This document shows, one piece after another, positions 4,279-63,928 of a stretch of 64,000 bases of DNA. Below the pieces are notes generated by a model that was given only the letters and a program-made list of their open reading frames with translations, was not told where the DNA came from and ran no database searches. A program made the translations under genes and the position numbers. The number at the start of each line of letters is the position of its first letter. The stretch's first letter is position 1. The DNA is from Halomonas sp. 1513 (GTDB lineage: Bacteria; Pseudomonadota; Gammaproteobacteria; Pseudomonadales; Halomonadaceae). The stretch is taken from the NCBI GenBank assembly GCA_001971685.1, contig CP019326.1:3100001-3164000 (forward strand). The letters are read 5' to 3'.

Positions 4279-4457
4279 GACTCACCTCTACATCACGAAA
4301 GACGGCAACGCATAAATCGGCGCCCAGTGTAGCCGAAAGCGTACAGGCCGCCGATGGTTGACGGCCAAACAGGGCAATATGGCCGCCGAATCGTTTTATA
4401 TATTGCACACTACGTCAATTATGATAACAATCAGCCCATCGACCCTGAGGAGGCAGC
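4279..4457. promoter_or_regulatory. Divergent control region between DUF1266 gene and gabD
   Basis: This 179-bp gap serves two divergent genes and becomes AT-rich just before gabD (about 4393-4430). The 9-mer GGCCGCCGA occurs twice, at 4346-4354 and 4381-4389, 35 bases apart, so the copies lie on the same helix face if bound by a protein. A TATGAT hexamer lies in the AT-rich part, but no convincing -35 pairs with it. A GAGGAGG ribosome-binding site at 4448 serves gabD. Confidence 0.4.
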
Positions 4458-26712: not shown

Positions 26713-28242
26713 TTACACGTCGAGCAGCAGACGTGCCGGATCCTCGAGCAGTTCCTTGATGGTCACCAGGAACTGCACCGCGTCCTTGCCATCGATCATG
26801 CGGTGGTCATAGGAGAGCGCCAGGTACATCATCGGGCGGATCTCGACCTTGCCGTTGACCGCCATGGGGCGTTCCTGGATCTTGTGCATACCCAGGATAG
26901 CGGTCTGCGGCGGATTCAGAATCGGCGTCGACATCAGCGAGCCGAAGATGCCGCCGTTGGTAATGGTGAAGGTGCCGCCCTGCATCTCGTCGATGCCCAG
27001 CTTGCCGTCGCGGGCACGCTTACCGAAGTCGACGATGGTCTTCTCGACGTCGGCGATCTTCATGCTGTCGGTGTCACGCAGTACCGGGACCACCAGACCG
27101 CGCTCGGTGGAGACCGCCACGCCGATGTCCTGGTAGCCGTGGTAGACGATATCGCTGCCGTCGATGGAGGCGTTGACATCGGGGAAGCGCTTGAGTGCCT
27201 CGGAGGCCGCCTTGACGAAGAAGCCCATGAAACCGAGCTTGGTGTCGTGGGCCTTGAGGAAGGTGTCCTTGTACTGCGCGCGCAGGTCCATCACCGCGCC
27301 CATGTCGACCTCGTTATAGGTGGTCAGCATGGCGGCGGTCTGCTGGGCCTGAACCAGCCGCTTGGCGATGGTCTGGCGCAGGCGGCTCATCGGCACGCGC
27401 TTCTCGGGGCGCTCGCCTTCGACGACCGGTGCCACGGGGGCGGCCTGCTTGGGTGCGCTGGCCGGCTTGGCGGCCTTCTTCGCGGAGCCCTCCTTCACGG
27501 CCTTCTGGACGTCCTCCTTGAGGATGCGCCCGCCCTTGCCGGTACCCTCGATCTTGCTGACCTCGAGGTCATGCTCGGCGACCAGCTTGCGCGCCGCCGG
27601 GGCGAGGATCTTGTCACCGACCTTCTCGTCGCCGTCGTCACCCGACGCAGCACTCTCTGCCGGCGCCGCCTCGCTGCCAGCGCCATCACCTTCGCTGAAG
27701 ATCGCCAGCACCTGCTCGGAAGCAACCTGGCTACCCTCTTCGGCCTTGATCTCGGCGAGGGCACCGTCGGCCGGCGCCACCACCTCGAGGACCACCTTGT
27801 CGGTCTCGATCTCGGCCAGCACCTCGTCGCGCTTGACCGCTTCGCCGACCTGCTTGTTCCAGCTGGCCACGGTGCCTTCCTGGATCGACTCGGGGAAGGT
27901 CGGCGCCTTGACGTCGTGCTGCTGGCCGCTGGCGGCGGGCTTGGGAGCCTCGGCCTTGGCGTCGTCGGCTTTGCCACCCTTGTCGGCAGCCTTGGCCTTG
28001 TCGCCGGCCGCGCCAAGAATGCCCAGCACCTGCTCGGACTGAACGGTGTCGCCTTCCTCGGCGTTGATTTCGCTCAGCGTGCCGGCTTCCGGCGCCACCA
28101 CTTCGAGCACCACCTTGTCGGTCTCGATTTCGACGATCAATTCGTCGCGCTCAACGCTATCGCCGGGCTGCTTGTGCCAGGCCGCCACGCTGCCTTCGGC
28201 AACGGACTCTGGAAAGGTTGGCGCTTTGATCTCGGTAGCCAT
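26713..28242 (-). CDS. sucB: 2-Oxoglutarate dehydrogenase E2 (succinyltransferase), two lipoyl domains
   Basis: A 509-residue dihydrolipoyl succinyltransferase, the core of the 2-oxoglutarate dehydrogenase complex. Two lipoyl domains are present, with [12 protein letters not shown] repeated and lipoyl lysines at Lys43 and Lys149. They are joined by Ala/Lys/Asp-rich linkers. The peripheral-subunit-binding domain follows (about 210-246, [20 protein letters not shown]), then the catalytic domain with the active His in [12 protein letters not shown]. coli and Pseudomonas SucB are about 405 residues with one lipoyl domain, so this protein has one extra. The ATG at 28242 has an AAGGAAA site; sucA ends 40 bases upstream. 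Confidence 0.96.
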
Positions 28243-28282
28243 GTCGTTTCCTTGTGTGTTCTCTCTCGTCCGGCAGGACGCC

Positions 28283-50358: not shown

Positions 50359-51213
50359 TCAGCGCAGCAGCAATACCGGCACGCTGGCGCGGCGCAGCAT
50401 CGCCGTGGTGGTGCTGCCCACCAGCAGGTGACGAATCCGCGAATGGCCGTAGGCACCCATCACCAGCAGGTCGATGCCCTGCTCTTCCTTGTAGTTGCGC
50501 AGGGTCTCCTCCACCTCGCCGGCGCGAATCGCCCCCTGCGCCTCGAGCCCCGCGGCGCGCAGGGTCTCGAGCGCCCACTCGAGCTGCGAGCGGTTGTCGC
50601 CGGTCTCGGCGCCGACGATCACCACGTGCACCGGAATGCCCTCGAACAGCGGGCTCTTGGCGATCATCTCGACGCCCTTGCGGGTGGTCTTGCTGCCGTC
50701 GAAGGCGATCAGCACCTGGCTGGGTGTCTGGAACTGGTCCGGCACCATCAGGATCGGCCGGTGCAGGCTGCGCACCACCCGCTCGAGGTTCGAGCCCAGG
50801 TGGTCGACGGCCTGGTGAGCGGTCTCGCCGCGCTTGCCGATCACCAGCAGGCGGATCTCGTTCTCCAGCTCGCTGAGCGTCTCGACCAGGGTGCCGTTGC
50901 GCTGGCGGGTGGCCGGCTCGTCGACACCGGCTCCGACCGCCCGGGTCTTGGCCGCAGACAGCATCACCCGGCCCTGCTCCTGGGCCAGCTTGGCGCGCTG
51001 CTCATCGAGGTTGGCCAGCTCCTCCAGCAGGTGCTCCCGCGAGCCCAGGCCGATGTTGCCGGACAGGTCCGCCTCGGCGACCTGCGGGTGGTTGTCCACC
51101 ACGTGCAGGAAGGTCAGCGGCGCCGCCAGCGCCTGGCTGGCCCAGGCTGCGTAGTCGCATACGCCTTCAGAAAAGTGCGAGCCGTCGATGGCGGCCATTA
51201 CCTGATCTGTCAT
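50359..51213 (-). CDS. Tandem-domain universal stress protein
   Basis: A 284-residue protein with two UspA folds (about 1-150 and 160-284). The second domain has an intact ATP-binding loop, MGAYGHSRIRHLLVGSTT, and the acidic residue in LIAFDGSKTT. The first has a degenerate loop, GKRGETAHQAVDHLGSN. This is the UspE-like or hypoxia-type tandem arrangement, in which one domain binds nucleotide. No Anr box is visible upstream, unlike the single-domain Usp gene at 14412. It is convergent with the MFS gene. Confidence 0.92.
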   Translation of the reverse strand: MTDQVMAAIDGSHFSEGVCDYAAWASQALAAPLTFLHVVDNHPQVAEADLSGNIGLGSREHLLEELANLDEQRAKLAQEQGRVMLSAAKTRAVGAGVDEPATRQRNGTLVETLSELENEIRLLVIGKRGETAHQAVDHLGSNLERVVRSLHRPILMVPDQFQTPSQVLIAFDGSKTTRKGVEMIAKSPLFEGIPVHVVIVGAETGDNRSQLEWALETLRAAGLEAQGAIRAGEVEETLRNYKEEQGIDLLVMGAYGHSRIRHLLVGSTTTAMLRRASVPVLLLR

Positions 51214-51323: not shown

Positions 51324-51503
51324 TTACGAAACAGGCGCCACCCCTGGCGACGTCAACGCCGCCAGTGAAAAGAGCAGGCCCGAGATCGCAAACAGCGCAC
51401 TGAAGCCCCAGTGGAACCACTGGCGGCCGGCGCGGTTGCGCTTGACCGCCTGGGTCACGGCGATATAGCTGAACAGCGCCGACAGTACGGTGAGCCACAG
51501 CAT
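51324..51503 (-). CDS. Small membrane protein (59 aa)
   Basis: A short gene encoding a 59-residue protein that starts MLWLTVLSALFSYIAVTQAV and has a second hydrophobic helix (about 33-50) after a basic, Trp-containing loop (KRNRAGRQWFHWG). GGAGG lies eight bases before the ATG, and codon third positions follow the genome pattern. It is downstream of the aldo/keto reductase gene on the same strand (28-base gap), so probably co-transcribed. No function known. Confidence 0.65.
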   Translation of the reverse strand: MLWLTVLSALFSYIAVTQAVKRNRAGRQWFHWGFSALFAISGLLFSLAALTSPGVAPVS

Positions 51504-51531
51504 AGGAACACCTCCAGAAGCGCCTTGGCTG

Positions 51532-52563
51532 TTAGAGTCCGAACAGGTCGGCCTTGGGCGGCATGCCCACCTCCTCGACCAGTGCGTACACCTGGTCGAG
51601 CAGGTCGCGCTCGGGATAGTTGCCGTCGCAGGCCGCCAGCATCGCCTCGACCTGACGCTCGTTGTTGGCGCTGACCACCAGCGAGGTCACCGCTGGGTGC
51701 GCCAGGGCGAACTTGAGCGCGAAGTCGGTCCAACCGCCGTCCGGCTCGCCGATGTGCGCACGGATCTTGTCGAGCAGGGCGTAGCGCGAATCCCAGCCGG
51801 CGCGGTGCTTGAGGTCGTCTGCCGGCAGGCCCTCGCGCTGGACTCGCTTGTCGGTCAACATGCCCTGCAGCAGCGGGCGAATGGCCAAAAATCCCCGGCC
51901 CTCCTGCGCCAGGCGATCGAGAATCGGCAGTGCCTCGGGCTCGATGACATTGAAGAAGTGCGCCACGCCAGCATAGGCGTCGGTGTCCAGCGCCGCCCGG
52001 GCGTAGCCCATGGTATGCGGGAAGGTGATGAAGTGGCCCACCTTGCCTTCGCGCTTGAGCGCATCGAAGGTCTCGACGAGCGGTTCGAGTATCGCCGGCA
52101 GCGCGCCGATGCGTCGCGCGTCGCCCTCAGCCGCGTAGGCCTCGACCTTGGGCACGTGGGGGCCGCGCTGAAGGTGCTGGACCACGGCGATGCGGTCGGT
52201 ATGCAGGTCGCGCAGCGCCTCCTCGACGCTGTCCCGCAGCACCCGGGGATCGACCTGCCCCTCCTCGTAGTCGGGCGTGGTCATCTTGATCACATGGTGG
52301 ATGTCGTGGCGCTTGGTGTGCCGAGCGAGTATCTCGCTGAGCATCCAACGCGTGCCATAATCGCCGCTGGAGTGGATACAGTTGACGCCTGCATCGAGGG
52401 CTGCCTCGAGGGCCCGGCGCCCCTCGCGGTTCTGCTGCTCCGCCTCGGCCTGGCTGCGCTCGCCGGGAAGCGTCACGTGGTCCGCTGTACTGGTGAAGCG
52501 CATCGCGCCGAAGCAGAGCTCTGAGAGTTCCAGGTCGGTGTTGCCGAATCGTCTATAACGCAT
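51532..52563 (-). CDS. Aldo/keto reductase-like protein, altered active site
   Basis: A 343-residue TIM-barrel protein of the aldo/keto reductase superfamily, opening MRYRRFGNTDLELSELCFGA. The usual tetrad is altered. Tyr69 (SGDYG) and Lys93 (HVIKMTTP) are kept, but the Asp normally five residues before the Tyr is His64, and the histidine strand reads VVQHLQRG, with His shifted by one. C-terminal SLVVSANNERQV is the NADPH-phosphate region. It may be a weak oxidoreductase or a non-redox relative. It lies 48 bases behind the sigma-54 activator gene, on the same strand. Confidence 0.85.
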   Translation of the reverse strand: MRYRRFGNTDLELSELCFGAMRFTSTADHVTLPGERSQAEAEQQNREGRRALEAALDAGVNCIHSSGDYGTRWMLSEILARHTKRHDIHHVIKMTTPDYEEGQVDPRVLRDSVEEALRDLHTDRIAVVQHLQRGPHVPKVEAYAAEGDARRIGALPAILEPLVETFDALKREGKVGHFITFPHTMGYARAALDTDAYAGVAHFFNVIEPEALPILDRLAQEGRGFLAIRPLLQGMLTDKRVQREGLPADDLKHRAGWDSRYALLDKIRAHIGEPDGGWTDFALKFALAHPAVTSLVVSANNERQVEAMLAACDGNYPERDLLDQVYALVEEVGMPPKADLFGL

Positions 52564-52611
52564 GGGATTACCTCGATGTTGTCGTTATCGGGAGGCCTGG
52601 CACTTGATATC

Positions 52612-54615
52612 TCAAGGCCGCTGTTTCAGGTATTTATAAACGGTGCTGCGCGAGACCCCGACCTCGCGTGCCACCTTGGAGACGTTGTACATGTGCCGCT
52701 GGCAGGCTTGCAGGATCTGCTCGGCGAGCAGTCGCTGGCGAGTGTCAGCGGCACCGCTTGGCGGCGTTGACGAAGCGTACTTCTCCTGGCGGCCTGGCGG
52801 CGCTGTCTGACGCTGGCGCGCCGGATCGGGAATCCCCACCAGCGTTTCCATCTCGAAGGTTGCCAGGACATGCTTGCGGGTGATCTTGCTCTCGTCGTTC
52901 AACACCACGAGACGCGTGAGAAAGTTACGCAGTTCACGGATATTGCCGGGCCAGTCATGACGGTGGAGTTCATCGAGGCCGCAGCGCGAAAGCGTGACCT
53001 CGGGGTCGATCTTGCCCAGGATATGCCTGGCCAGCTCGGCAAAGTCCGCACGCTCACGAATATTGGGCAACTGGATGGAAATCGTGCTCAGGCGGTAGAA
53101 CAGGTCGGAGCGAAAGTCACCCGCCTGAACCGACTCTTGCAGGTTGGCATTGGTGGCCGCTACCACCTGGATGTCGACATCGATATCCGTGGTTCCACCC
53201 ACCGGGCGATAGCGTCGATTGTCCAGCACGCGGAGCAACTTGACCTGAGTCGCCAGCGGCAGTTCGCCCAGCTCATCCAAAAAGATGGTACCGCCATTCG
53301 CCTGATGGAAAAGCCCGTTGGCGCCGCCCTTTCGCGATCCGGTAAAGGCGCCATCGACATACCCAAACAGTTCGGATTCGACGAGGTTCTCCGGGATCGC
53401 CCCACAGTTCACCGGTACGAATTGCCCCTCGCGGCCGCTGGCCTGATGGATATACTTTGCGAACACCTCCTTGCCGGTGCCGGTCTCGCCGGTAATCAGA
53501 ATCGGCAAGGTGCGCTTGACCGCATTTTTCAAGTACTTCAGCTGCTCGAGCAGCTGTGGGTCGTTGGCCACGAAACGCGCGTTCGGGCAAGGTTCCGGCT
53601 CGGGTTCGGTGCTGTCGGCACCCCTGGAATCACAATCGCTGGAGGCGTCGCCACGCGACTGAAGGGTGTGCGTGGTCTGCAGCACGTTGGTATTCTCCAC
53701 CGCCAGGAAGTAGTGGCTCCCCACATGGTCGGCGACCATGGTCTCGCCGGTGGCCAACACCTTGTCGATCACCTCGCCAAAGGGGGTGGTGAAGAGGTCA
53801 TTGAAGTGGCTGTCACGGGAGACCCCCATTCCGTCGAGGATGAACAGTGCCTGACGGTTGGCGGCCAGCAAGTGCCCGTCAGGGGTCAGCGCAACCAGCC
53901 CGGCACTGACGGTGTAGCGATACTCACGCCGGCTATGAAACGATAGGATGAGATGCTGCTGATAACGCTCGCGGAAGTAGCCCATCTCGATGTTCTTGGC
54001 CGAGAAATTGACCAGCGCCAGGGTGTGCGGTGGCCGCGGGCAGGAGTCGGACGAGGCATCGAGAATCGCGATGATATTGCCGTCGGGATCAAATACCGGA
54101 GCCGCAGCACAGGTCAGCGTCTTGTAACGATCGAGATAGTGCTCGCCGGCATGCACCAGCACCGGCTGCTTGACCAGCGCACAGGTGCCGAGGGCATTAG
54201 TGCCTTGGAGAGACTCCTGCCACAGCGAGCCGAGGCGAATATTGCGCTGCCGCGCAACGCGCTTGAAATCGCTGTCGGCCCGCGCATCCATGATCAAGCC
54301 GGTCTCGTTGGCCAGCGCCACCGCAAAGCGCGTCCCGGCGATCTGGCCATAGAGAAGATCGAGTTCGGCCCTGGCGATACGACGTATCACGTTGAGTCGC
54401 TCGCGCTCTGCGCACAGCACGTCCTTGGCCACATAGTTGAGTTCCGGTTCATCCTGCGGCGAGAGGCCCACCGCCTGGCAGCGTCGCCACGACGCCTCGA
54501 TCAACGCCTCCTGCGGTAACTCATTGTATGTCGTACTGGCTGACGTGATGCCGATGGCACTCTGGTTGTCGCGTGCCAACGACGCGTGTCGATGGTGGTT
54601 ATCGCTGGATAGCAT
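52612..54615 (-). CDS. Sigma-54-dependent activator, AcoR/DhaR type
   Basis: A 667-residue enhancer-binding protein. The N-terminal GAF-type sensor (about 70-190) is followed by a PAS-like domain (about 230-310), the AAA+ domain (about 350-585) and a Fis-type HTH (about 625-667, NVSKVAREVGVSRSTVYKYL). Walker A is GETGTGKE (376-383) and Walker B GGTIFLDELGELP. The sigma-54 contact loop reads GAFTGS instead of GAFTGA. The ATG at 54615 has GGGAGGAG upstream; 31 earlier codons are discounted. The matching sigma-54 promoter lies at 63809-63824, at the head of the same-strand gene set, and is its likely target. Confidence 0.93.
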   Translation of the reverse strand: MLSSDNHHRHASLARDNQSAIGITSASTTYNELPQEALIEASWRRCQAVGLSPQDEPELNYVAKDVLCAERERLNVIRRIARAELDLLYGQIAGTRFAVALANETGLIMDARADSDFKRVARQRNIRLGSLWQESLQGTNALGTCALVKQPVLVHAGEHYLDRYKTLTCAAAPVFDPDGNIIAILDASSDSCPRPPHTLALVNFSAKNIEMGYFRERYQQHLILSFHSRREYRYTVSAGLVALTPDGHLLAANRQALFILDGMGVSRDSHFNDLFTTPFGEVIDKVLATGETMVADHVGSHYFLAVENTNVLQTTHTLQSRGDASSDCDSRGADSTEPEPEPCPNARFVANDPQLLEQLKYLKNAVKRTLPILITGETGTGKEVFAKYIHQASGREGQFVPVNCGAIPENLVESELFGYVDGAFTGSRKGGANGLFHQANGGTIFLDELGELPLATQVKLLRVLDNRRYRPVGGTTDIDVDIQVVAATNANLQESVQAGDFRSDLFYRLSTISIQLPNIRERADFAELARHILGKIDPEVTLSRCGLDELHRHDWPGNIRELRNFLTRLVVLNDESKITRKHVLATFEMETLVGIPDPARQRQTAPPGRQEKYASSTPPSGAADTRQRLLAEQILQACQRHMYNVSKVAREVGVSRSTVYKYLKQRP

Positions 54616-54672
54616 GGCGCACTCCTCCCGATACGCCGGCAGCACAGTGTGCCACTGGCGATGATTGTTATT

Positions 54673-54685
54673 GTTATTAAATAAC
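54673..54685. promoter_or_regulatory. 13-bp palindrome upstream of the sigma-54 activator gene
   Basis: GTTATTAAATAAC is a perfect palindrome in an AT-rich stretch 58 bases before the activator start, inside its probable promoter (minus-strand TTGGAT and TTTAAT lie nearby). It may be an operator. The remaining 166-bp gap shows no gene. Confidence 0.4.
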
Positions 54686-54781
54686 ATTCTTGAAGGATCC
54701 AACTTCATTCAAAGTTAACCATGTTCGCGGCAGAAGAGTCCAACCAAGGATGTAAGTGATTGACGACACCTAAACCGAGAT

Positions 54782-55522
54782 TCAAGTTGTCTCACCGGGC
54801 AGCGGTGCGGCGTCGCCATCGGTGCCTACCGAAAAGACGTCATACTCGCGAATACCTGGCTCGCGCTGGCCGGTGATGCCGACCCAGCCGTTGGCGCCGA
54901 CACGCTCCGGTTCGATATCCGCCACCTCGTAGTGCCACCAGTCCGGCTCGGCCTCACCGTCCCGCCACCCCTTGGCCTTGACCTGCAAGGCACCGCCCTC
55001 GGCCTCGACCCGAACGCGCAGCCAGCACCAGGCATCGGGCTGCCAGGGGAAGAAGCTCTCGCCCCAGATTCTGGCCACGCCGTGGGGGCGTTGCGGGCCG
55101 CGTTCGGCCTCGCCCTCAGGGTTGTAAGCAACCAGAAACAGGGTCTGGCGCTGCTCGAGCTTGGGCGCTTCATACTCCACCAGGCCGTGGTTAGCGCCCT
55201 TGAAGCACTCGCAGGTGATGCCCTGCTCGGTGCCGCGCTCGCCCTCGCCGTCACCGCGCACGATGACACCGAAACGCGAATCGCCGCTGGTGCTGCGCAT
55301 GCGGGTCAGCACCTCATAGCTCACGGCTCCCCGAGGCACTCGCTCCCAGGCCCAGGCGCGCCGGTTGTTGGTATCAATGCGGTGCCGCAGCAGTTTGCCG
55401 CCGATGGCATCCGCTGCGTCCTGGACCTCGAGGCGATGCCCGCCGGGAATCCAGGCATCCCGCCAATCGGCCGGCGGCTCGCCGCTGGGATAGTCGGAAA
55501 AGTCGGTCAGATATTGCGCCAC
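54782..55522 (-). CDS. Protein of unknown function in the catabolic cluster
   Basis: A 246-residue soluble protein with no signal peptide, rich in Trp and beta-strand-like segments. Stretches such as SYEVLTRMRSTSGDSRFGVI and WCWLRVRVEAEGGALQVKAK recall concanavalin-A-like jelly-roll domains of carbohydrate-active proteins, but no catalytic motif is recognised. The start is GTG at 55522 with AAGGAG seven bases upstream. A 12-bp hairpin separates it from gloA. Cytoplasmic location and its place between gloA and the activator gene suggest a role in handling the cluster's substrate. The fold assignment is tentative. Confidence 0.65.
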   Translation of the reverse strand: MAQYLTDFSDYPSGEPPADWRDAWIPGGHRLEVQDAADAIGGKLLRHRIDTNNRRAWAWERVPRGAVSYEVLTRMRSTSGDSRFGVIVRGDGEGERGTEQGITCECFKGANHGLVEYEAPKLEQRQTLFLVAYNPEGEAERGPQRPHGVARIWGESFFPWQPDAWCWLRVRVEAEGGALQVKAKGWRDGEAEPDWWHYEVADIEPERVGANGWVGITGQREPGIREYDVFSVGTDGDAAPLPGETT

Positions 55523-55553
55523 TGTGTTCTCCTTGCACGCACCGAGAATTGTC

Positions 55554-55586
55554 GATAGCGCCCTTGCGGTCAGGAAGGGCGCTATC
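55554..55586 (-). terminator. Intercistronic hairpin behind gloA
   Basis: GATAGCGCCCTT at 55554-55565 pairs perfectly (12 bp) with 55575-55586 across a nine-base loop. There is no T-run on the minus strand, so it probably stabilises or processes the message rather than ending it. Confidence 0.6.
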
Positions 55587-55598
55587 AAAGGCCTGCCC

Positions 55599-55982
55599 TC
55601 AGGCCGTTTCCGGCATCTCGCGCAGCTCGAGCTTGTAGCCCGTGGGGTCTACGGCAAAGGCGATGCGCATGCCGTTCTGCATGGTCTTGGGCGGCAGCGA
55701 GAACTCAACGCCACGTGACTTCCACTCCTCATAGGTATCGTCGACGCTGACCACGTCGAAGGCCATGTGGCCGTAACCATCGCCCAGGTCGTAGGAGCGC
55801 CCGTCGTGGTTGTAGGTCAGCTCGATCTCATGACCGCTCTTGGGCTCGCGCAGAAAGGCGATGGTGGCATCGTTGCCGGGCAACTCCTCCCTAGCGACGA
55901 GCTCGAGGCCTATCTTCTGGGTGTAGAAGTCGATGGACTCGTCCAGGTCTTCGACACGTATCATGGTATGTACCAGTCGCAT
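55599..55982 (-). CDS. gloA: Lactoylglutathione lyase (glyoxalase I)
   Basis: A 127-residue VOC-fold metalloenzyme that isomerises the glutathione hemithioacetal of methylglyoxal to S-lactoylglutathione. Metal ligands are in place: His5 (LVHTMIRV), Glu54 (EIELTYN), His72 (YGHMAFDV) and Glu119 (YKLELRE). The short form without extra loops is the Ni/Co-activated type of E. coli (135 residues). AGGAG precedes the ATG. Its presence inside a catabolic operon suggests that the pathway makes a 2-oxoaldehyde, or that this copy acts on a related substrate. Confidence 0.92.
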   Translation of the reverse strand: MRLVHTMIRVEDLDESIDFYTQKIGLELVAREELPGNDATIAFLREPKSGHEIELTYNHDGRSYDLGDGYGHMAFDVVSVDDTYEEWKSRGVEFSLPPKTMQNGMRIAFAVDPTGYKLELREMPETA

Positions 55983-56000
55983 TGCTTGCTCCTCACTCGG

Positions 56001-56948
56001 CTATTTGATGTTCTCGTTGGCCCACTTCTTGTGAACCGCCAGTGCCATCAGGCGGCGGTCACGCCACTGCTGACGCGCCTTGTGCTGATCCATGGGCACG
56101 CGTTCGCGAAAACTCTTGTCGATGTAGTCCAGTAGCGGCCCAGCCCAGGGCACCAGGTCGCGCTGTTCCATTGCGATATTGCGGTTCATGGCCTCGTACT
56201 TCTCGGCATATTCCTTGAAGCCGTTGGGCGCGTTGAGATCACCGACCTCCAGCGGCCCGATGAACGACCAGCGCTGGCTGATGCCCTCGGACATCGCCTT
56301 GTCCACGTCCGCAGGCGACACCACACCCATGGCCACCAGGCGGAAGGCTTCCTGTAGGATCGGCGACTGGAAGCGGTTCATGATGAAGCCGGTGATCTCC
56401 TTGTGCAGGGTGATGGGGGACATGCCCATCGCTTCGAGCCGCTCGCGGGTCTTCTGGGTGACCTCGGGATCGGTCCAGGGCGCTGGCACCAGTTCGAGAA
56501 TCGTCACCACATAGGGAGGATTGGTGGGATGGACGATCATGCAGCGGTGTCGGCCCTCGAGTCCCTCGGTGAACTTGGAGGTCACGATCGACGACGATGA
56601 GCTGGCCAGCACCGCATCCTTAGGGGCGATCTTGTCCAGCTTGGTAAACAGCTCGCGCTTTAGCTCGAGCACTTCCGGGGCATTTTCCTGAACATGGATG
56701 GCCCCCTCGACGGCTCCCTCCATGCTTTTGACAGGGATCATCCGGCTCATCACGTCATCGGTGGTGCGGTCGTTGAGCAGACCGTTCTGCTCGAGATCGG
56801 CCACCGTCTCGCGCATCAGGGGGATCGCCGCCTCTGCCGCACCATCCTTGGGGTCATAGAGGGTGACCTCGTAGCCCCCGCGTGAGAAACAGATGGCAAA
56901 GGCACGTCCGATAATGCCGCTTCCGATCATTGCTACGCGTTCCGCCAT
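56001..56948 (-). CDS. 3-Hydroxyacyl-CoA dehydrogenase family (lambda-crystallin/L-gulonate dehydrogenase-like)
   Basis: A 315-residue NAD-dependent dehydrogenase. The Rossmann motif is VAMIGSGIIGRAFAICFSRGG. The catalytic His is in MIVHPTNPPY, followed by the conserved Glu in ELVPAPWTDPE. The C-terminal domain carries GFIMNRFQ and a SQRWSFIGPLE block. NPPY and the FIGPLE segment point to the lambda-crystallin (CryL) branch, which oxidises free 3-hydroxy acids such as L-gulonate, rather than the fatty-acid beta-oxidation branch; L-carnitine dehydrogenase is a further relative. The ATG at 56948 has AAGGAG at proper distance, unlike the ATG two codons earlier. Confidence 0.88.
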   Translation of the reverse strand: MAERVAMIGSGIIGRAFAICFSRGGYEVTLYDPKDGAAEAAIPLMRETVADLEQNGLLNDRTTDDVMSRMIPVKSMEGAVEGAIHVQENAPEVLELKRELFTKLDKIAPKDAVLASSSSSIVTSKFTEGLEGRHRCMIVHPTNPPYVVTILELVPAPWTDPEVTQKTRERLEAMGMSPITLHKEITGFIMNRFQSPILQEAFRLVAMGVVSPADVDKAMSEGISQRWSFIGPLEVGDLNAPNGFKEYAEKYEAMNRNIAMEQRDLVPWAGPLLDYIDKSFRERVPMDQHKARQQWRDRRLMALAVHKKWANENIK

Positions 56949-56997
56949 GATCATTCTCCTTGGTCTATCGTGTGGTTGTTCGACGCGTCGGATCCGT

Positions 56998-57936
56998 TCA
57001 GCGATTCACGACCCTCGGATCCAGCAGGGTATAAAGCATGTCAGCCAGCAGGTTGAGGGTGATATAGAGCGCGGCCACCGTGGTCAGCCCCGCCGCCACC
57101 ACCGGGATATCGAGCATGCGGATGGAGTCCATCAGCAGGCGCCCGAAGCCGGGCCAGGCGAAAACGGTTTCGATGACCATCGAGCCGGCCAGTATCCAGC
57201 CGAACTGCAGGGCGTACAGCGTGACGTAGGGGATCAAGGCGTTGCGCAGGGCATGCACGTAGATCACCTTGGTTTCGCTGAGCCCCTTGGCGCGTGCCGT
57301 GCGCACATAATCCTCGTTGATGACCTCGAGCACCGTGGAGCGCATCATCCGCGTCAGATAGGCCATCGGCATCAGCGACAGCACCACCATCGGCATCAGG
57401 ATATAGCGCGCCTGTGTCCAGATCGGCGAGCCGGGGTCCGCACGGCCGGAGGAGGGCAGGATGCCCAGCGCCGACGAGAACAGCAGGATGGCCATGATCC
57501 CAACCCAGAAGTTGGGCGCGGCCTGACCGATCAGGGCCACGAAACGCGCCACGTAATCGATCATCGAGTTGCGGTGAACGGCGCTGATCACCCCCACCGG
57601 AATCGAGACCAGGGCGGCCAGCAGCATGGCGGGAAGCGCCAGCTCGGCGGAGCGGCCGAGGCGCTCGATAATGATTGGCACCACATCGGTGCGTTGACGA
57701 TAGGAGACACCAAAGTCCAGCTGTACGGCACTGCGCATGAACTCGAAGTACTGCACGATCATCGGGCGATCGAAGCCCATCGAACGGCGATAGCGCTCGA
57801 GTACTTCAGAGGACGCATCGGGCCCCACGTACATCATCGCGGGGTCCCCGATGACGAACATCATCAGAAAGGCCAGGGTCAGGGCGGCCAGGATAACGAT
57901 CAGGCCCTGGACCACGCGGTTGGCTAGGTAGAACAT
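56998..57936 (-). CDS. ABC importer permease, DppB/OppB type
   Basis: A 312-residue inner-membrane permease with six helices. Family features are the opening YLANRVVQGLIVILAALTLAF, the EAA loop EVINEDYVRTARAKGLSETKV that contacts the ATPase, and the C-terminal ETVFAWPGFGRLLMDSI. It pairs with the DppC-type permease encoded upstream. It is separated from the binding-protein gene by a strong hairpin, which would make the binding protein more abundant than the membrane parts. Confidence 0.94.
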   Translation of the reverse strand: MFYLANRVVQGLIVILAALTLAFLMMFVIGDPAMMYVGPDASSEVLERYRRSMGFDRPMIVQYFEFMRSAVQLDFGVSYRQRTDVVPIIIERLGRSAELALPAMLLAALVSIPVGVISAVHRNSMIDYVARFVALIGQAAPNFWVGIMAILLFSSALGILPSSGRADPGSPIWTQARYILMPMVVLSLMPMAYLTRMMRSTVLEVINEDYVRTARAKGLSETKVIYVHALRNALIPYVTLYALQFGWILAGSMVIETVFAWPGFGRLLMDSIRMLDIPVVAAGLTTVAALYITLNLLADMLYTLLDPRVVNR

Positions 57937-57976
57937 CGACGGCGCTCCCGGAAAGCTATCTTGTTATGGTGGCCAA

Positions 57977-58004
57977 GGCGCAGCCGGCCAGTGCCGGCCG
58001 CGCC
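57977..58004 (-). terminator. Intercistronic hairpin behind the binding-protein gene
   Basis: GGCGC and GCCGGC (57977-57988) pair with GCCGGC and GCGCC (57993-58004), with one A-C mismatch. No T-run follows on the minus strand. Such hairpins behind binding-protein genes are known to raise their message level. Confidence 0.6.
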
Positions 58005-58012
58005 AAGGTAGG

Positions 58013-59572
58013 TCACTCCCTCACGTAGATGGAGGCCCAGTCTTCCACGAGCATCGAAGGATGCGGGTAGTAGCCGCCGATACGCTCGTTGACGCCCATC
58101 GGGATCGGCATCAGATAGGTGTAGAGCCACGGCGGATCCTCGTGGAGGATCTCCTGCATCGCATAGTTGAGCTCCTGGCGACGCTCCTCATCGATGGTCG
58201 AGGACAGCTCGCGATACATCTCCTCCCACTCTTCGTAACGATCGCTGTAGGTCGCCCAGTGGGTCGAGTTGGTCTGGCGCCCGTCGTGGACCGCCCACAT
58301 ATCGGTTTCCGGTGTGTTCTCGGCCGCCGACCAGGCGAAGGCATGCACGCTCAGGGTCCGCGCCGCCCAGCGCTCACGCACCACGCTCCAGTCGAGCTGG
58401 CGCACCTCACCCACATCCACGCCAATCGCACCCCAGTAGGCAGCGGCGATTTCGGCATAGTCGAAGGACTCTGGTGTCATCACATCGATGGTGTCGATAC
58501 GGAAGCCATCGGGATAGCCGGCTTCAGCCATCAGTTCCATGGCCCGCTCGAGGTCGAAGGGATAGGGATCGAGGTCGGGATGGTCATTGGGGGGGTTGAC
58601 CACGTTGACCATCTGCAGATCCTGGTTGCCGAAGGCCAGGGCATCTACCATCTCTTCACGGTCGATGGCGTAGTTGAGGGCCTGGCGAACCCGCGGATCG
58701 CGCAGCTCCTCGTACATGTCCATGTTGAAGCCCAGCATGCCGCGCACCAGGCTTGGCCCGATGACCGTGGTCACGCCATCGGCCTCCTCGGCACTATCCA
58801 CCAGGTCGGGGCGCAGCCGGATGATATCGACATTGCCATCGATCAGTTCCGAGAGTGCCGTGGACTCTTCAGGGATATTGCGGAAGACCAGTTGCTCGAC
58901 GTTGCTGTTGTCGTGCCAGCCCCAGTAGTCGTCATGGCGATCGAGGATCACCCGATCGTCGGCGCGATACTCGTTGAGCTTGTAGGGGCCGGTGCCCATG
59001 GGCTGGAAGCGCTTGTCATCGATCTCATCGATGGCCTGGTAGTGGCCCGGTTCCATGATGAAGGCGCCGTTGCGCGATAGCTGGCTCGGCAGGATCGGCG
59101 CCGGCTCGGTGGTGTGGATGATGACCTCGTAGTCGTTGACGATCTCCACGTGATCGATGGGCACGTCGAGGAACTTGTCACCGCTGGGAAAATCGTCCCG
59201 GAAGGGGCGCTCGATGCTGTACTTGACGGCCTCGGCGTTGAACGGCTCGCCGTTGTGGAAGGTCACGCCCTCGCGCAGCTTGAAGCGCCAGGCGTTGTCG
59301 CCTTCCGGTTCCCACTCGGTGGCCAGCGCCGGGCGCAGACCACTCATCTCACCCTCTTCGGCACGGGCATCGAAGTCCCACACCAGCGGCTCGAATAGAG
59401 CATTCGAGACCATCTGCTCGGAGTAGTTGACGTTCATCACCGGATCGCCGATGACATCGATGGTCTCATACAGCACGTAGGTAACCGTATGGGCTTGCAC
59501 GGCACTCGCCATCGCCGTCAAGGCAAGCGACGGTAGTAGTGCACGACGTATCATCTTGGATGGCATTTTCAT
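58013..59572 (-). CDS. ABC importer substrate-binding protein, family 5
   Basis: A 519-residue periplasmic binding protein of the SBP_bac_5 (DppA/OppA) family. The signal peptide (about 1-27) is MIRRALLPSLALTAMASAVQA, with no lipobox Cys, so it is freely periplasmic. Landmarks are the WRFKLREGVTFHNGEPFNAE strand and GTGPYKLNEYRADDRV. Family members bind peptides, opines, nickel complexes or sugar oligomers; the substrate here is not evident. The ATG at 59572 follows GGGAGA; upstream codons belong to the intergenic stretch. Confidence 0.93.
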   Translation of the reverse strand: MKMPSKMIRRALLPSLALTAMASAVQAHTVTYVLYETIDVIGDPVMNVNYSEQMVSNALFEPLVWDFDARAEEGEMSGLRPALATEWEPEGDNAWRFKLREGVTFHNGEPFNAEAVKYSIERPFRDDFPSGDKFLDVPIDHVEIVNDYEVIIHTTEPAPILPSQLSRNGAFIMEPGHYQAIDEIDDKRFQPMGTGPYKLNEYRADDRVILDRHDDYWGWHDNSNVEQLVFRNIPEESTALSELIDGNVDIIRLRPDLVDSAEEADGVTTVIGPSLVRGMLGFNMDMYEELRDPRVRQALNYAIDREEMVDALAFGNQDLQMVNVVNPPNDHPDLDPYPFDLERAMELMAEAGYPDGFRIDTIDVMTPESFDYAEIAAAYWGAIGVDVGEVRQLDWSVVRERWAARTLSVHAFAWSAAENTPETDMWAVHDGRQTNSTHWATYSDRYEEWEEMYRELSSTIDEERRQELNYAMQEILHEDPPWLYTYLMPIPMGVNERIGGYYPHPSMLVEDWASIYVRE

Positions 59573-59631
59573 TGTTGTCTCCCGATTGCTGTTAGCGTGC
59601 TTTTCTGCGTTTGAAACGTCTTGCAACCTCC

Positions 59632-60564
59632 TCATTCAGCCTTTACGTCGAAGTGATCCCTCACCCAATCCCCGAGGAGATTGAAGGCAAGGACGGTGAA
59701 GGTAATCGCCAGGCCGGGGAACAGCGCGAACCACCAGTTGCGCAGCATGACGTCACGCGCATCGGCAATCATGTTGCCCCAGGTAGGAATTGCGGGAGGA
59801 ATCCCCAGGCCAAAGAAACTCAGGGAGGCCTCGTAGTAGATGGCGATGGCGAGGGTAAAGCTGGCCACCACCAGCATCGAAGCCAGCGCATTGGGCAGCA
59901 CATGCTTGAAGATCAGGCGCACGTTGCCGGCGCCCAGCGCTCGCGCGGCCTGTACGTACTCGGTCTCGCGCACCTTGATCACCTCGGAGCGCACGATGCG
60001 CGCGTAGTAGGCCCACTGAGTCAGGGCGATCACGAAGATCAACTCGACCACCCCGGAGCCGATCAACGCCATCACGATCAGGCCGATCAGCAGGCTGGGA
60101 AAGGCCAGCTGCAGGTCCGCCAGGCGCATGATGATGCCGTCGAGCCAGCGGCCGAAGAAGCCGCTGATCAGGCCCATGAAAATCCCCACCAATCCACTGA
60201 CGATGACCGCTGCCACCGCCACGATCAGGGTCATCTGGGAGGCGTGTATCAGACGGCTGAGAATGTCACGTCCCAGTGAATCGGTGCCCAGGAAGTAGAT
60301 GGGATTCGAGTTGGAGTCGGTCCACACCGGCCACAGCATGCGGTTGCTGATATCCACCGCCCGCGGATCATGCGGCGCGATCCACTGCGCTGTCAGCGCC
60401 ACGATCACCAGCATCAGCAGAAGCAGTGCCGATGCGAGTGCCGCCTTGGAGCGATACAGCGAGCGCAGCGCGCGTTTCCACTCGCTTTTCCTGGGGGCCA
60501 CTATCTGGGCATCGTGCTTGCCGTTGCCAACGGGAGGCTGAGATGTTGCTGTCGTTGTTGTCAT
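59632..60564 (-). CDS. ABC importer permease, DppC/OppC type
   Basis: A 310-residue inner-membrane permease. The cytoplasmic N terminus (1-38) is followed by a first helix ALASALLLLMLVIVALTAQW and the conserved FLGTDSLGRDILSRLIHASQ. The EAA loop is KVRETEYVQAARALGAGNVR, and ALSLSFLGLG-type EASLSFFGLGIPPAIPTWG is the DppC signature. It lies 59 bases upstream of the binding-protein gene and 24 behind the second ATPase gene. Confidence 0.94.
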   Translation of the reverse strand: MTTTTATSQPPVGNGKHDAQIVAPRKSEWKRALRSLYRSKAALASALLLLMLVIVALTAQWIAPHDPRAVDISNRMLWPVWTDSNSNPIYFLGTDSLGRDILSRLIHASQMTLIVAVAAVIVSGLVGIFMGLISGFFGRWLDGIIMRLADLQLAFPSLLIGLIVMALIGSGVVELIFVIALTQWAYYARIVRSEVIKVRETEYVQAARALGAGNVRLIFKHVLPNALASMLVVASFTLAIAIYYEASLSFFGLGIPPAIPTWGNMIADARDVMLRNWWFALFPGLAITFTVLAFNLLGDWVRDHFDVKAE

Positions 60565-60588
60565 TGTGCTGACTCCTGGTCCGCTGTT

Positions 60589-61605
60589 TCAGCGATGAAT
60601 GCAGGCCTTGAAGTGACCGGGACTCTTCTCCTCCAGGGGCGGCACGACCTCGGCGCACTCCTTGGTGGCGATCGGGCAGCGCGTGCGAAACACGCACCCT
60701 GAGGGCGGGTTGATCGGACTCGGTATATCGCCCTTGAGGATGATGCGGGTCTTGTCGTCACGACGACGGGGGTCGGGGACCGGCATCGCCGACAGCAGCG
60801 ACTGGGTATAGGGGTGGGTCGGGTCGGCGTACAGCTTGTCTGCGGGCGCCATCTCCATCACCTTGCCCAGGTAGAGCACGATCACCTTGTCGCAGGCGTG
60901 CTCGACGACACCCAGATCGTGGGAGATCATCAGCATGGAGAACTCGTACTCCTCCTTGAGATCCTGCAGCAGGTTGAGCACCTGGGCTTGCACCGAGACG
61001 TCCAACGCCGACACCGGTTCATCGGCGACCAGCAGCTGCGGGCTCACCGCCAGGGCCCGGGCGATGCCGATACGCTGACGCTGGCCCCCTGAGAACTCAT
61101 GGGGGTGACGGTTGACGTGGGCAGGCCCCAGCCCCACGGTTTCCAGCAGCCTGGCGATGCGCTCGTTGCGCTCTGCCATGCCGTACATGCGATGCACGTC
61201 GAGGCCTTCGCGGATGATCGGCCCCACCTTCATGCGCGGGTTCAGGCTGCCGTAGGGATCCTGGAAAATGATCTGGATCGCCTTGCGCATCGCCATCAGC
61301 TCCTTGCCTTCCGCCGTGGCGACATCGGTCTCACCGAATTGGATGCTGCCCGAGGTCGGGTCGATCAGGCGCATGATCATCCGCCCGATGGTGGTCTTGC
61401 CCGAGCCGGATTCGCCGACTAGCCCCACCACCTCGCCCTTCTTTACCGTGAAGGAGACATCGTCCACGGCCTTTACATGGCGCCGATTCTTGATGAAAAA
61501 CGTCTTGCCAACCGGGAAGTATTTCTTGAGATTCACGACGCGGAGCAATTCGTCGTCGGGGAGCGCCTGCTGGTCGGCATCCTGCTTGAGTGCTGCTTCG
61601 CTCAT
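60589..61605 (-). CDS. ABC importer ATPase, DppF/OppF type
   Basis: A 338-residue ATP-binding subunit. Walker [10 protein letters not shown], the ABC signature LSGGQ-equivalent [15 protein letters not shown], Walker [15 protein letters not shown] and the switch His in [11 protein letters not shown] are intact. The C terminus has the oligopeptide-ABC extension with Cys residues ([11 protein letters not shown], then GHFKACIH) that may bind an Fe-S cluster as in DppD/F. Its start lies two bases behind the upstream ATPase stop, with AGGAGG inside that gene. Confidence 0.95.
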
Positions 61606-61607
61606 GA

Positions 61608-62627
61608 TCAGACGCCTCCTGCCTTGGCATGGTCATTGATTTCCTTCCAGCGCACGCAGCGCACCCGGTGGTCGTCACCGATGGACTCCAGCGGCGGCAC
61701 CTTCTGGGTACAGATGTCCTTGGCATACCGACAACGCGGCTCGAAGCTGCAGCCCGGCGGCAAATTGTGCGGGCTCGGCACATTGCCGGGAATCGCCACC
61801 AGACGATCCCGCTTGCCCTGCTTGTGGCCAACCCAGGAGGGAATCGAGTTGAGCAGCCCCTGGGTATAGGGCATGCTCGGGCGCTCGTAGATATCGAAGA
61901 CGCCGGACTCCTCGACGGCGCGGCCGGTGTACATCACCACCACCCGGTCGGCCATTTCGGCAACCACGGCCAGATCATGGGTAATGAACAAGATGCTGGT
62001 GCCGATCTCCTTCTGCAGGTTGCGCATCAGATCGAGGATCTGGGCTTGGATGGTGACGTCGAGCGCCGTGGTCGGCTCATCGGCGATCAATAGACGCGGA
62101 TTGCACGACAGCGCGATGGCGATCATTACTCGCTGGCGCATACCGCCGGATAGCTGATGGGGGTATTCCTTGGCACGCTGGGCGGGCTCGGGAATGCTGA
62201 CCAGGTCGAGCATCTCGATGGCGCGGTTCCAGGCCGCCTTCTTGTCGAGTTTCTGGTGCAGAGCCACCGCCTCGGCGATCTGGTAACCCACGGTAAACAC
62301 CGGGTTAAGGCTGGTCATGGGTTCCTGGAAGATCATCGAAATGCGATTGCCACGCAGGGCTCGACGCTGCTGGGGCGTCATCTTCACCAGATCCTGACCC
62401 TCGAAGAATATCTCGCCGCCGGCGACATAGCCCTTGCCCTTGGGCAGCAGGTCCATGATGCCGAGGCTGGTGACGGATTTGCCGGAGCCGGACTCGCCGA
62501 CCACGGCCAGGGTCTCGCCCTCGTTGATATCGAAGCTGACCCCGTCCACGGCGGGGACGATGCCGTCGTCGGTCTTGAAGTGGACCTGGAGGTCCCTGAC
62601 GCTGAGAAGCGGTTTGTTAGCTGTCAT
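61608..62627 (-). CDS. ABC importer ATPase, DppD/OppD type
   Basis: A 339-residue ATP-binding subunit. Walker A is [10 protein letters not shown], the signature [15 protein letters not shown], Walker [15 protein letters not shown] and switch His [12 protein letters not shown]. The C-terminal oligopeptide-ABC extension carries [14 protein letters not shown]. With its neighbours it completes an importer of two ATPases, two permeases and one binding protein. A hairpin separates it from the alcohol dehydrogenase gene. Confidence 0.95.
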
Positions 62628-62660
62628 CGGAAAGTGCTCTCTCTAGCAAAGGAGTGTCGC

Positions 62661-62678
62661 GGCCCGCCTCTGCGGGCC
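62661..62678 (-). terminator. Intercistronic hairpin behind the dehydrogenase gene
   Basis: GGCCCGC at 62661-62667 pairs perfectly with GCGGGCC at 62672-62678 around CTCT. No T-run follows. It lies between the dehydrogenase stop and the importer genes and could lower expression of the latter. Confidence 0.55.
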
Positions 62679-62689
62679 ACTGCAATGGG

Positions 62690-63733
62690 CTAGGGAATCA
62701 GGACGGCGCGTCCTGGCACTCTTCCGTGATGCAGATCGTGAAGCGCCTGGTTGGCGTCTTTCAGCGCGTACTCGCGGGTCGCCAGTTCCACGGCGCCGCG
62801 GTCGGCCAGCGCCATCAGCTCTACCAGTTCCGGGTAGGTACCCACCAGATTGCCGATGATGCGCTTCTCGGTGACGACCATGTCGATGGTGGGGATCTCG
62901 ATCTTGCCGCCGTAGCCGATCACGTAGTAGCCGCCGTTGGTGCGGGTCATCGCCAGGCCCTTGCTGACCGCGTCACCCTCGCCGACGAAGTCGAGCACCG
63001 CCTCGGCACCGTGACCGTTGGTCAGCGACATTACCGCCTCGACTTCACCGCCGTCGGCCTTGATGGCGTGGTGGGCACCCCCCGACTCGGCCAGCTTGAG
63101 GGCCGACTCGGCGCGATCGATGGCGATGATCTCGGCGCCGCACAGCGCGGCCAGGACCTGGACGCCAATATGGCCGAGGCCGCCAACACCCAGCACCACC
63201 ACCTTCTGGCCGGGCACTAGATGCTGGGCGGCCTTCTTAGCCGCGTGGTAGGCGGTGAGACCGGCATCGGTGTAGGGTGCAACATCCTTGGGGGCCAGGC
63301 TGCCCGGCAGCGTGATCAGCGCCCGCTCATTGGTATACAGGTAGTCGGCATAGCCGCCCTGAGCGTTGATGCCCGGAAAGCTGCTCTCTTCGGCGTGCAT
63401 GTCGTTACCTCGCCGGCAGGCAAGGCAGTGGCCGTTGGTGGCCAGGGGGTGGCAGATCACCGCATCGCCGGGCTTGACGCTGGTGACGCCGGGGCCAACC
63501 TCCTCGACCCAGCCGGCGTTCTCGTGACCCATGACGAAGGGCAGATCGATCGGTGCGTGCTCGCGCCAGATACCCTCGATGATATGCAGGTCGGTGCGGC
63601 AAACCCCGGCCCCGCCGATCCTGACGATGACATCATCGGGCTTTTCGATACTGGGGTCCGGCCAATCTTCATAGGTGACCAGATCCGGACGCTCGACCTT
63701 TTCGTCGTAGGCATGCAGCACGGCTGCTTTCAT
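62690..63733 (-). CDS. Zinc-type NAD(P)-dependent alcohol dehydrogenase
   Basis: A 347-residue medium-chain dehydrogenase. Catalytic zinc ligands are Cys45 (GVCRTDLH) and His70-Glu71 (GHENAG); the cofactor fold has GVGGLGHIGVQVL (182-194). The structural zinc lobe is degenerate: only Cys103 and Cys106 of the usual four Cys remain (GHCLACRRG), with Asn100 and Ala114 near the missing positions. It is the first gene behind a near-perfect sigma-54 promoter with AAGGAG before the ATG, so it is the main product of the regulated unit. The substrate is probably an alcohol or aldehyde released from the compound imported by the adjacent ABC system, an inference from context. Confidence 0.93.
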   Translation of the reverse strand: MKAAVLHAYDEKVERPDLVTYEDWPDPSIEKPDDVIVRIGGAGVCRTDLHIIEGIWREHAPIDLPFVMGHENAGWVEEVGPGVTSVKPGDAVICHPLATNGHCLACRRGNDMHAEESSFPGINAQGGYADYLYTNERALITLPGSLAPKDVAPYTDAGLTAYHAAKKAAQHLVPGQKVVVLGVGGLGHIGVQVLAALCGAEIIAIDRAESALKLAESGGAHHAIKADGGEVEAVMSLTNGHGAEAVLDFVGEGDAVSKGLAMTRTNGGYYVIGYGGKIEIPTIDMVVTEKRIIGNLVGTYPELVELMALADRGAVELATREYALKDANQALHDLHHGRVPGRAVLIP

Positions 63734-63808
63734 GGTCGATCTCCTTACGCATTGTGATTGTTATGGTGACGCTGAGCGGCGGCTCTTCGTTACTCTTTCC
63801 ATTACTAC

Positions 63809-63824
63809 GGCAAGAGTCGTGCCA
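63809..63824 (-). promoter_or_regulatory. Sigma-54 (-24/-12) promoter
   Basis: On the minus strand TGGCACG (63818-63824), ACTC, TTGCC (63809-63813) matches the -24/-12 consensus TGGCACG-N4-TTGCW except at the last base; the invariant GG and GC are exactly spaced. The expected start is near 63798, about 65 bases before the dehydrogenase ATG. Confidence 0.88.
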
Positions 63825-63918
63825 TACCATAACTTTCAATGAGTTAAGAAATACGATCCGGGGAATGTGTGTGTTTGTGCAGTCTGCGAGGCGTGCTCGG
63901 CGGGCACTTCTGGACAGT

Positions 63919-63928
63919 TTTGTACAAA
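63919..63928. promoter_or_regulatory. Candidate upstream activator site
   Basis: TTTGTACAAA is a perfect 10-bp palindrome about 100 bases upstream of the -24 element, a usual distance for an enhancer bound by a sigma-54 activator. The rest of 63734-64000 contains no gene on the minus strand. Confidence 0.35.

Follow-up and report, generated by a model that had tools for sequence, protein, structure and literature searches.

At 63733-51324 of a 64-kb stretch of DNA from the salt-tolerant bacterium Halomonas sp. 1513 (the window, by which we mean the whole stretch analysed), 12 minus-strand genes lie downstream of one sigma-54 site, and the question raised by this locus is whether they serve a common pathway and which kind of compound that pathway would handle. 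The order is alcohol dehydrogenase (ADH), OppD, OppF, OppC, family-5 binding protein, OppB, 3-hydroxyacid dehydrogenase (HCDH), glyoxalase I-like protein (GLO), putative jelly-roll protein and activator, which makes 10 genes, and an aldo/keto reductase (AKR)-like protein and a small protein bring the total to 12. The synteny lends good support to a shared pathway, as does a promoter site conserved in four relatives. The reading we favour, tentatively and with a little less than an even chance of being right, is that the cluster imports a 1,2-diol or alpha-hydroxyketone compound and oxidises it to a 2-oxoaldehyde, which glyoxalase I converts to a D-2-hydroxy acid, under sigma-54/AcoR-type control.

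Gene set and promoter

All genes of the original prediction were recovered as open reading frames (ORFs) in the same place, on the same strand and with the same families (ORF list, Pfam, NCBIfam). Two starts were revised: 59572 for the binding protein and the GTG at 55522 for the jelly-roll protein are more likely, because they agree with the relatives' reading frames, and the binding-protein ORF of Halomonas ML-15 begins at the equivalent Met. With these starts the intergenic gaps measure 2-76 nucleotides (nt). The features, in order of transcription, are:

63911..63926, minus strand: upstream element TGTACAAAACTGTCCA, at a distance of 87 nt from the sigma-54 site; candidate for activator binding
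63809..63824, minus strand: sigma-54 promoter site TGGCACGACTCTTGCC, from a consensus scan and conservation in relatives
62690..63733, minus strand: zinc-type ADH, 347 amino acids (aa); Pfam ADH_N and ADH_zinc_N, best solved relative 1h2b
61608..62627, minus strand: OppD-type ATP-binding cassette (ABC) ATPase; family match, 91-94% identity in L003-L005
60589..61605, minus strand: OppF-type ABC ATPase; family match, 91-95% identity in L003-L005
59632..60564, minus strand: OppC-type permease; Pfam/NCBIfam family match, relatives
58013..59572, minus strand: family-5 solute-binding protein; Pfam SBP_bac_5, start revised from 59635
57937..58012, minus strand: intergenic hairpin 3' of the binding-protein gene; minimum free energy -36.4, z -2.8
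56998..57936, minus strand: OppB-type permease; Pfam/NCBIfam family match, relatives
56001..56954, minus strand: lambda-crystallin-type HCDH; 3HCDH family, 95-97% identity in four relatives
55599..55982, minus strand: GLO; family match and ligand positions, under the curated NCBIfam glyoxalase I cut-offs
55523..55598, minus strand: intergenic hairpin, stem 55586-55554, z -2.4; place of the E1 alpha, E1 beta and lipoyl genes in three relatives
54782..55522, minus strand: protein with a possible jelly-roll (ConA-like) fold, GTG start; predicted structure model
52612..54708, minus strand: AcoR-like GAF/AAA+/Fis sigma-54 activator; Pfam/NCBIfam domains
51532..52563, minus strand: AKR-like protein, His in place of the catalytic Asp; Pfam, alignment to two solved AKRs
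51324..51503, minus strand: 59-aa small protein, membrane-type by eye; 68-73% identity in L003-L006

The sigma-54 site matches 11 of the 12 fixed consensus positions, is the only one this good within the window and lies 75 nt upstream of the ADH ATG. About 0.7 sites with 11 of 12 positions are expected by chance per 64 kb, and a looser scan of the window gave no excess (30 sites against a mean of 34 in shuffles), so that the motif alone is weak evidence. The site gains credibility from its position before the ADH gene and from its conservation, as TGGCA-N6-TTGC[C/G] precedes ADH in all four relatives examined, and on these grounds the sigma-54 promoter of the original prediction can be retained. 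The window's genome encodes rpoN (486.6 bits, over the model cut-off), and the putative cognate AAA+ activator gene in the cluster carries a Sigma54_activat domain (Pfam). The activator's closest counterparts among eight regulators compared are an ADH-adjacent one from Aminobacter (38%) and then an aco-linked one from P. versutus (33%). Further upstream, about 87 nt from the sigma-54 site, the element aligns as TGTNCANAACTGTCCA across the window, ML-15 and DQ26W, and looser forms were seen by eye in MAG25 (one mismatch) and Kmv22 (two mismatches). With up to three mismatches allowed, its pattern is not above chance within the window (3 matches, of which the exact one is there by construction, against a mean of 2.3 in shuffles).

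Gene order in relatives

The original prediction depended, among other things, on the gene order being conserved in some relative, and this is what we found. Halomonas ML-15 (L003/L040) has 12 of the 12 genes in the window's order, and in DQ26W (L004/L069) and the metagenome-assembled genome (MAG) Kmv22 (L005/L070) the full set of twelve follows the same order, interrupted by insertions; in MAG25 (L006) the order is kept in part, the contig beginning in OppB and the activator gene being displaced behind the AKR, small-protein and universal stress protein (usp)-like genes, the last at L006 6880-7401. Across the four relatives ADH, HCDH and GLO are 90-97% conserved (90-97% for ADH by itself), and the least conserved products are the activator (71-82%), the jelly-roll protein (71-87%) and the small protein (68-73%).

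It is conceivable that the locus consists of adjacent units that work independently: an operon from ADH through the importer to HCDH and GLO, and genes for the jelly-roll protein, activator, AKR and small protein that are used separately and merely share an island. The hairpins between gene blocks, the displaced activator of MAG25, the glycerate kinase gene inserted between the AKR and small genes in DQ26W and the lower conservation of the jelly-roll, activator and small-protein genes would all suit such an arrangement. We consider it unlikely, given that ML-15 keeps the 12-gene order, that DQ26W and Kmv22 keep it too apart from their insertions, and that the gaps are so short. ML-15 likewise has a hairpin between the GLO and jelly-roll genes (L003 9921-9994, z -3.0), its stem sequence differing from that at 55554-55586 of the window.

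Additional enzymes in relatives

DQ26W, Kmv22 and MAG25 carry genes for E1 alpha, E1 beta and then a stand-alone lipoyl domain (~100 aa) between GLO and the jelly-roll gene, and a D-2-hydroxyacid dehydrogenase gene directly upstream of ADH, whose product passed the NCBIfam cut-off in both cases tested. One reason why we favour a glyoxalase-type chain is that E1 alpha/beta, a lipoyl domain and a D-2-hydroxyacid dehydrogenase are what one would expect downstream of glyoxalase in it. In DQ26W the E1 beta passes the pyruvate-dehydrogenase subfamily cut-off, the best model for the E1 alpha, one named pyruvate dehydrogenase, is matched below its cut-off (322 of 394 bits), and the lipoyl protein (L004 9575-9874) has its highest score against the acetoin-dehydrogenase E2 model, in the N-terminal part. 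Among plasmid-borne proteins the best matches to the E1 alpha reach 56-57% identity, and one of them, viewed in its neighbourhood, belongs to an aco-type operon that also encodes E2, 2,3-butanediol dehydrogenase and a sigma-54 regulator. E1 alpha/beta are absent from the window's cluster, and the best E1 alpha match in the window's genome is 29%. An E2-type frame at 26713-28290 of the window was considered as acyltransferase partner and rejected, its neighbours being, by eye, an ordinary 2-oxoglutarate dehydrogenase set.

The same enzymes could be read as a variant acetoin/2,3-butanediol pathway, in which ADH would make an alpha-hydroxyketone from a vicinal diol, the relatives' E1 alpha/beta-lipoyl set would cleave the ketone directly and glyoxalase would merely detoxify a side product, close to the by-product view of the original prediction. 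The 57% identity of E1 alpha to plasmid proteins, one of them in the aco-type operon, the match of the lipoyl domain to the acetoin E2 model and the AcoR-like activator speak for it, as does an acoR gene adjoining an AKR gene in Pelobacter, according to the available part of the published account (PMC3543383). This pathway is nonetheless improbable in our estimate: the cassette is missing from the clusters of the window and ML-15, and a close E1 alpha from the window's genome, with the other genes intact; the E2 catalytic half is missing; the pyruvate dehydrogenase model that fits E1 alpha best is not passed; and the D-2-hydroxyacid dehydrogenase has no place.

In a five-protein concatenated tree the window and ML-15 were split from the three E1-bearing relatives with a support of 100, and a jelly-roll tree that included L007, another MAG, gave the split between window plus ML-15 and the E1-bearing relatives a support of 81. 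The window lineage has probably lost the cassette: if L006/L007 form the deepest branch, one loss in the window/ML-15 line would be simplest, though the position of the root is uncertain enough to leave room for a single gain instead. L007 was kept in the jelly-roll alignments and tree and left out of the synteny counts because of an OppF-GLO fusion fragment and two GLO pieces, which may reflect a misassembly or else a variant cluster; in its stretch 1-5114 GLO and the jelly-roll gene are also separated by a gene for an amidase.

Proposed pathway

We picture the locus as an operon for catabolism, recent or unstable in its distribution, that sigma-54 and the AcoR-type activator would control. 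An inducer, either the substrate or the ketol, would act on the GAF domain of the activator, which would bind at 63926-63911 and act from there on the promoter (63824-63809). A hydroxylated compound ending in a 1,2-diol or alpha-hydroxyketone would enter through the importer, ADH, possibly helped by HCDH, would oxidise it towards a 2-oxoaldehyde, and glyoxalase I, together with glutathione and a glyoxalase II encoded elsewhere, would yield a D-2-hydroxy acid. In DQ26W, Kmv22 and MAG25 the D-2-hydroxyacid dehydrogenase and E1 alpha/beta-lipoyl set would take this acid via a 2-oxo acid to an acyl unit, and the window and ML-15 versions, without those genes in the cluster, would hand it to general metabolism.

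The original prediction had proposed two oxidations and the removal of a 2-oxoaldehyde by-product. A 2-oxoaldehyde chain does fit, because GLO keeps the positions H5, E54, H72 and E119, which we take to be the glyoxalase I metal ligands, because of the extra enzymes of the relatives and because an acetol-methylglyoxal-glyoxalase route has been published; the by-product status is what we would drop, as we read the 2-oxoaldehyde as a main-line intermediate. The chain also gains from the finding of ADH relatives in propane-monooxygenase clusters (6 of 10 annotated neighbourhoods), in one case with a glyoxalase gene alongside.

A number of observations weigh against this chain. GLO falls under the curated NCBIfam glyoxalase I cut-offs (104 of 165 bits and 90 of 120 bits), and HCDH, the jelly-roll protein and the AKR-like protein have no fixed place in it. 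Small diols would not call for an importer of family 5. In MAG25 the ADH and D-2-hydroxyacid dehydrogenase genes sit on another contig than the other cluster genes. No acyltransferase (E2 catalytic) half follows the lipoyl domain in the clusters of DQ26W, Kmv22 and MAG25, which leaves acyl release unexplained. When relatives of the ADH were sought in a plasmid collection (25 records at E 1e-60; 12 neighbourhoods viewed, two unannotated and 10 annotated), a glyoxalase-family gene adjoined ADH in merely one of the 10 annotated neighbourhoods (L022), where it keeps the same four ligand positions and lies beside a GMC oxidoreductase gene. Acetol oxidation in the Methylacidiphilum route is likewise attributed to a GMC oxidoreductase and not to an ADH of this kind in the available part of that account (PMC8630023).

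A bolder version, which we regard as speculative and rather unlikely, is that the full cluster, as found in DQ26W and the two MAGs, specifies a hitherto undescribed pathway from import to an acyl unit, in which a ketol-derived 2-oxoaldehyde would become a D-2-hydroxy acid, be re-oxidised and then be cleaved by an E1 loading a free-standing lipoyl domain without its own acyltransferase, the acyl group being released in a new way; the window lineage would keep a shortened version between recombining usp copies that allow loss or amplification. It would be unusual for an acetoin-type E1 to be served by a free lipoyl carrier that lacks the E2 catalytic half. What was an orphan gene set can now be tested as a pathway: it has a promoter and a candidate site for its activator, its steps have a predicted order, and nature supplies variants with and without one cassette.

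Importer, dehydrogenases and jelly-roll protein

The importer is a complete family-5 (Opp/Dpp-type) ABC system consisting of an SBP_bac_5 protein, two permeases and two ATPases (Pfam, NCBIfam). The solved relatives of the binding protein include dipeptide, heme, nickel, agrocinopine and other binders and point to no ligand, and its best-ranked matches in the plasmid collection are merely 28-30% identical.

ADH was found in 2 of 151 family genomes at E 1e-80 and in 4 of 398 phylum genomes, the three other than the window's own at 50% identity. Near residues 102-116 the ADH of the window has no Cys at two of four positions that we assume to be the usual structural-zinc cysteines; Cys is also absent there in the ML-15, Caballeronia, Tabrizicola, Bradyrhizobium, Aminobacter, Ponticoccus and Shinella proteins and present in those of Gemmobacter (b copy), Paracoccus, Streptomyces and G539.

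HCDH, a protein of the lambda-crystallin type, has 3ado and 3f3s as its best solved relatives and scores above the cut-off of NCBIfam NF004783. It aligns Ser, His, Glu and Asn positions, presumably the catalytic residues, and an HPxNPP stretch with lambda-crystallin/L-gulonate 3-dehydrogenase. At E 1e-60 it occurs in 7 of 390 order genomes, with at most 43% identity in all but the window's own, and at E 1e-40 in 3 of 5 genus genomes, where the close form (97%) is confined to the window and ML-15 and the third is at 41%.

In the AKR-like protein, alignment to two solved AKRs showed that the Asp of the Asp-Tyr-Lys-His tetrad, which we take to be a catalytic residue in AKRs, is replaced by His. 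The surrounding IHSS stretch is also present in relatives, including the distant L007 copy, and the plasmid collection gave no match to the protein at E 1e-30. The view in the original prediction that all parts act as catalytic steps could not be upheld, with the AKR-like protein lacking its usual Asp and the jelly-roll protein having no assigned activity.

The jelly-roll protein had no Pfam or NCBIfam match at E 0.001, chance-level Pfam matches only at E 5, no match in the plasmid collection and none in a PDB profile search at E 5. A role as 3-keto-glycoside hydrolase was considered and finds no support in Pfam. The protein was confined to the window's genome and ML-15 among 196 relatives, a search of 398 phylum genomes returned the window's genome and one weak match, and a pattern-limited scan of about 85,000 species genomes gave five loci, all in Halomonas. 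Two Halomonas jelly-roll proteins had no match in PHROGs, and among 187 pattern stretches in viral contigs there was no relative. The weak genome match (E 6.8e-7) lies, by eye, among phage structural-type genes; this protein had no match in the phage collection and was used solely to deepen the alignment for a second structure model. The predicted local distance difference test (pLDDT) score was 47.5 for the first model and 60.5 for the one used in fold searches, whose neighbours include PL14 alginate lyase, Cip1 and a glucuronan lyase and also many lectins and non-enzymes.

These neighbours bear on a sugar-acid or glycoside pathway, with uronate-, aldonate- or glycosylglycerate-type import, an HCDH akin to L-gulonate 3-dehydrogenase, a jelly-roll lyase or glycosidase and glycerate as one product. 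HCDH is closest in the PDB to lambda-crystallin, whose homologue we take to be L-gulonate 3-dehydrogenase, the two lyases and Cip1 are among the fold neighbours of the jelly-roll model, and DQ26W has a glycerate kinase. Such a pathway seems doubtful to us: the kinase is found in just one of the four relatives, the lectins and non-enzymes among the fold neighbours and the pLDDT of the model reduce what the lyases can tell, no sugar-acid dehydratase, aldolase or kinase is among the 12 genes, and the acetoin-type E1 and the glyoxalase would be left unexplained.

Repeats at the cluster boundaries

The cluster is flanked by two usp genes in direct repeat, 99.77% identical over 858 bp:

50359..51213, minus strand: usp copy 1, cluster boundary; Pfam and comparison with copy 2
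64017-64868 (L068 515-1369), same orientation as copy 1: usp copy 2, just outside the window; genome comparison

An identity of 99.8% suggests recent exchange between the two copies. Two usp matches were found in 5 of 5 cluster-bearing genomes searched (the window's, ML-15, DQ26W, Kmv22 and MAG25) and one in 3 of 3 cluster-free congeners (G001, G003 and G004). The order in the cluster-free congeners is NfeD-SPFH-SulP-usp-RidA, with DksA-like pieces before RidA in G004, and that around the window is SulP-usp-cluster-usp-MFS-DksA-RidA. ML-15 shows SulP-usp-RF3-helicase-cluster-usp, its usp copies being 92.1% alike, and in DQ26W two copies (86.3%) surround an isocitrate-dehydrogenase-like gene (L077 8593-9630) and a helicase remnant, the cluster lying on another contig. 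Between 52 and 64 kb the G+C content of the six 2-kb bins is 0.609-0.624, compared with 0.634-0.681 for the five preceding ones; equally low values (0.603 and 0.616) occur in two bins elsewhere in the window, at 34-38 kb. Third-position G+C is 0.75-0.86 in the cluster against 0.85-0.92 in four flanking genes, a small and overlapping difference. The usp and G+C data fit a gain or loss of the gene set at a recombination-prone site, the direction not being proved, and the paired usp genes suggest a simple route by which a catabolic island may come and go in these halophiles.

Comparison with known systems

We found no publication whose title or abstract start describes this gene combination, in a search that left most subscription journals outside. 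Against the original remark that no named pathway with this combination was known stand named routes that are comparable, those of acetoin and acetol, which share parts with it. In Methylacidiphilum IT6 2-propanol is converted via acetone, acetol and methylglyoxal to lactate by way of glyoxalase (PMC8630023, available part), and this route resembles our proposed chain in that an alcohol is oxidised and both a 2-oxoaldehyde and glyoxalase I belong to the main line. It differs in its monooxygenase and GMC oxidoreductase, and the same part of that account contains no such importer, HCDH or AcoR-led Opp operon.

Propane-monooxygenase (prm) clusters, a soluble diiron monooxygenase (SDIMO) type, have alcohol dehydrogenase, GroEL and metal-dependent hydrolase genes downstream of the monooxygenase genes, as far as the available part of one description goes (PMC4428276). 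A soluble diiron monooxygenase was present in 6 of the 10 annotated ADH neighbourhoods (L020, L022, L023, L024, L028 and L029), where ADH identity is 51-72%. A scan of 10 loci, with L027 and L031 left out, found sigma-54 sites of at least 10 of 12 positions 61-75 nt before the ADH ATG in four (L020, L022, L023 and L025), three of which belong to the six monooxygenase neighbourhoods; a site of the same quality lies at 123 nt in L026 and a poor one at 383 nt in L028, and none was found before ADH in L021 (also read by eye), L024, L029 and L030. Unlike these clusters, the window has no diiron monooxygenase among its 12 genes (Pfam/NCBIfam) and an importer in its place.

In three of the 10 annotated neighbourhoods, on Tabrizicola, Ponticoccus and Streptomyces plasmids, ADH is followed by a CUT1-type importer:

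L021 9001-15618: ADH and CUT1-type importer
L024 9001-15538: ADH and CUT1-type importer
L030 9001-15617: ADH and CUT1-type importer

As in the window, an ADH (58-64% identical) heads an ABC importer, here with a divergent regulator gene, but the importer family is unrelated (of the SBP family 1 type in Tabrizicola), HCDH and GLO are absent and the scan gave no sigma-54 site before these ADH genes. Clusters of 3-hydroxyacid dehydrogenase and BKACE on Phyllobacterium and Sagittula plasmids share an HCDH of about 47% identity and differ in their transporters and in a 3-keto-5-aminohexanoate cleavage-type gene beside HCDH, of which there is none among the window's 12 genes. Acetoin dehydrogenase (aco) operons share the AcoR-type activator and, with three of the relatives, E1 alpha/beta and an acetoin-type lipoyl domain; in contrast to them, the lipoyl domain of the Halomonas clusters stands alone, without the alpha/beta-hydrolase-type half of P. 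versutus AcoC, the E1-lipoyl cassette is absent from the window, and the Halomonas cluster adds the importer, HCDH and GLO.

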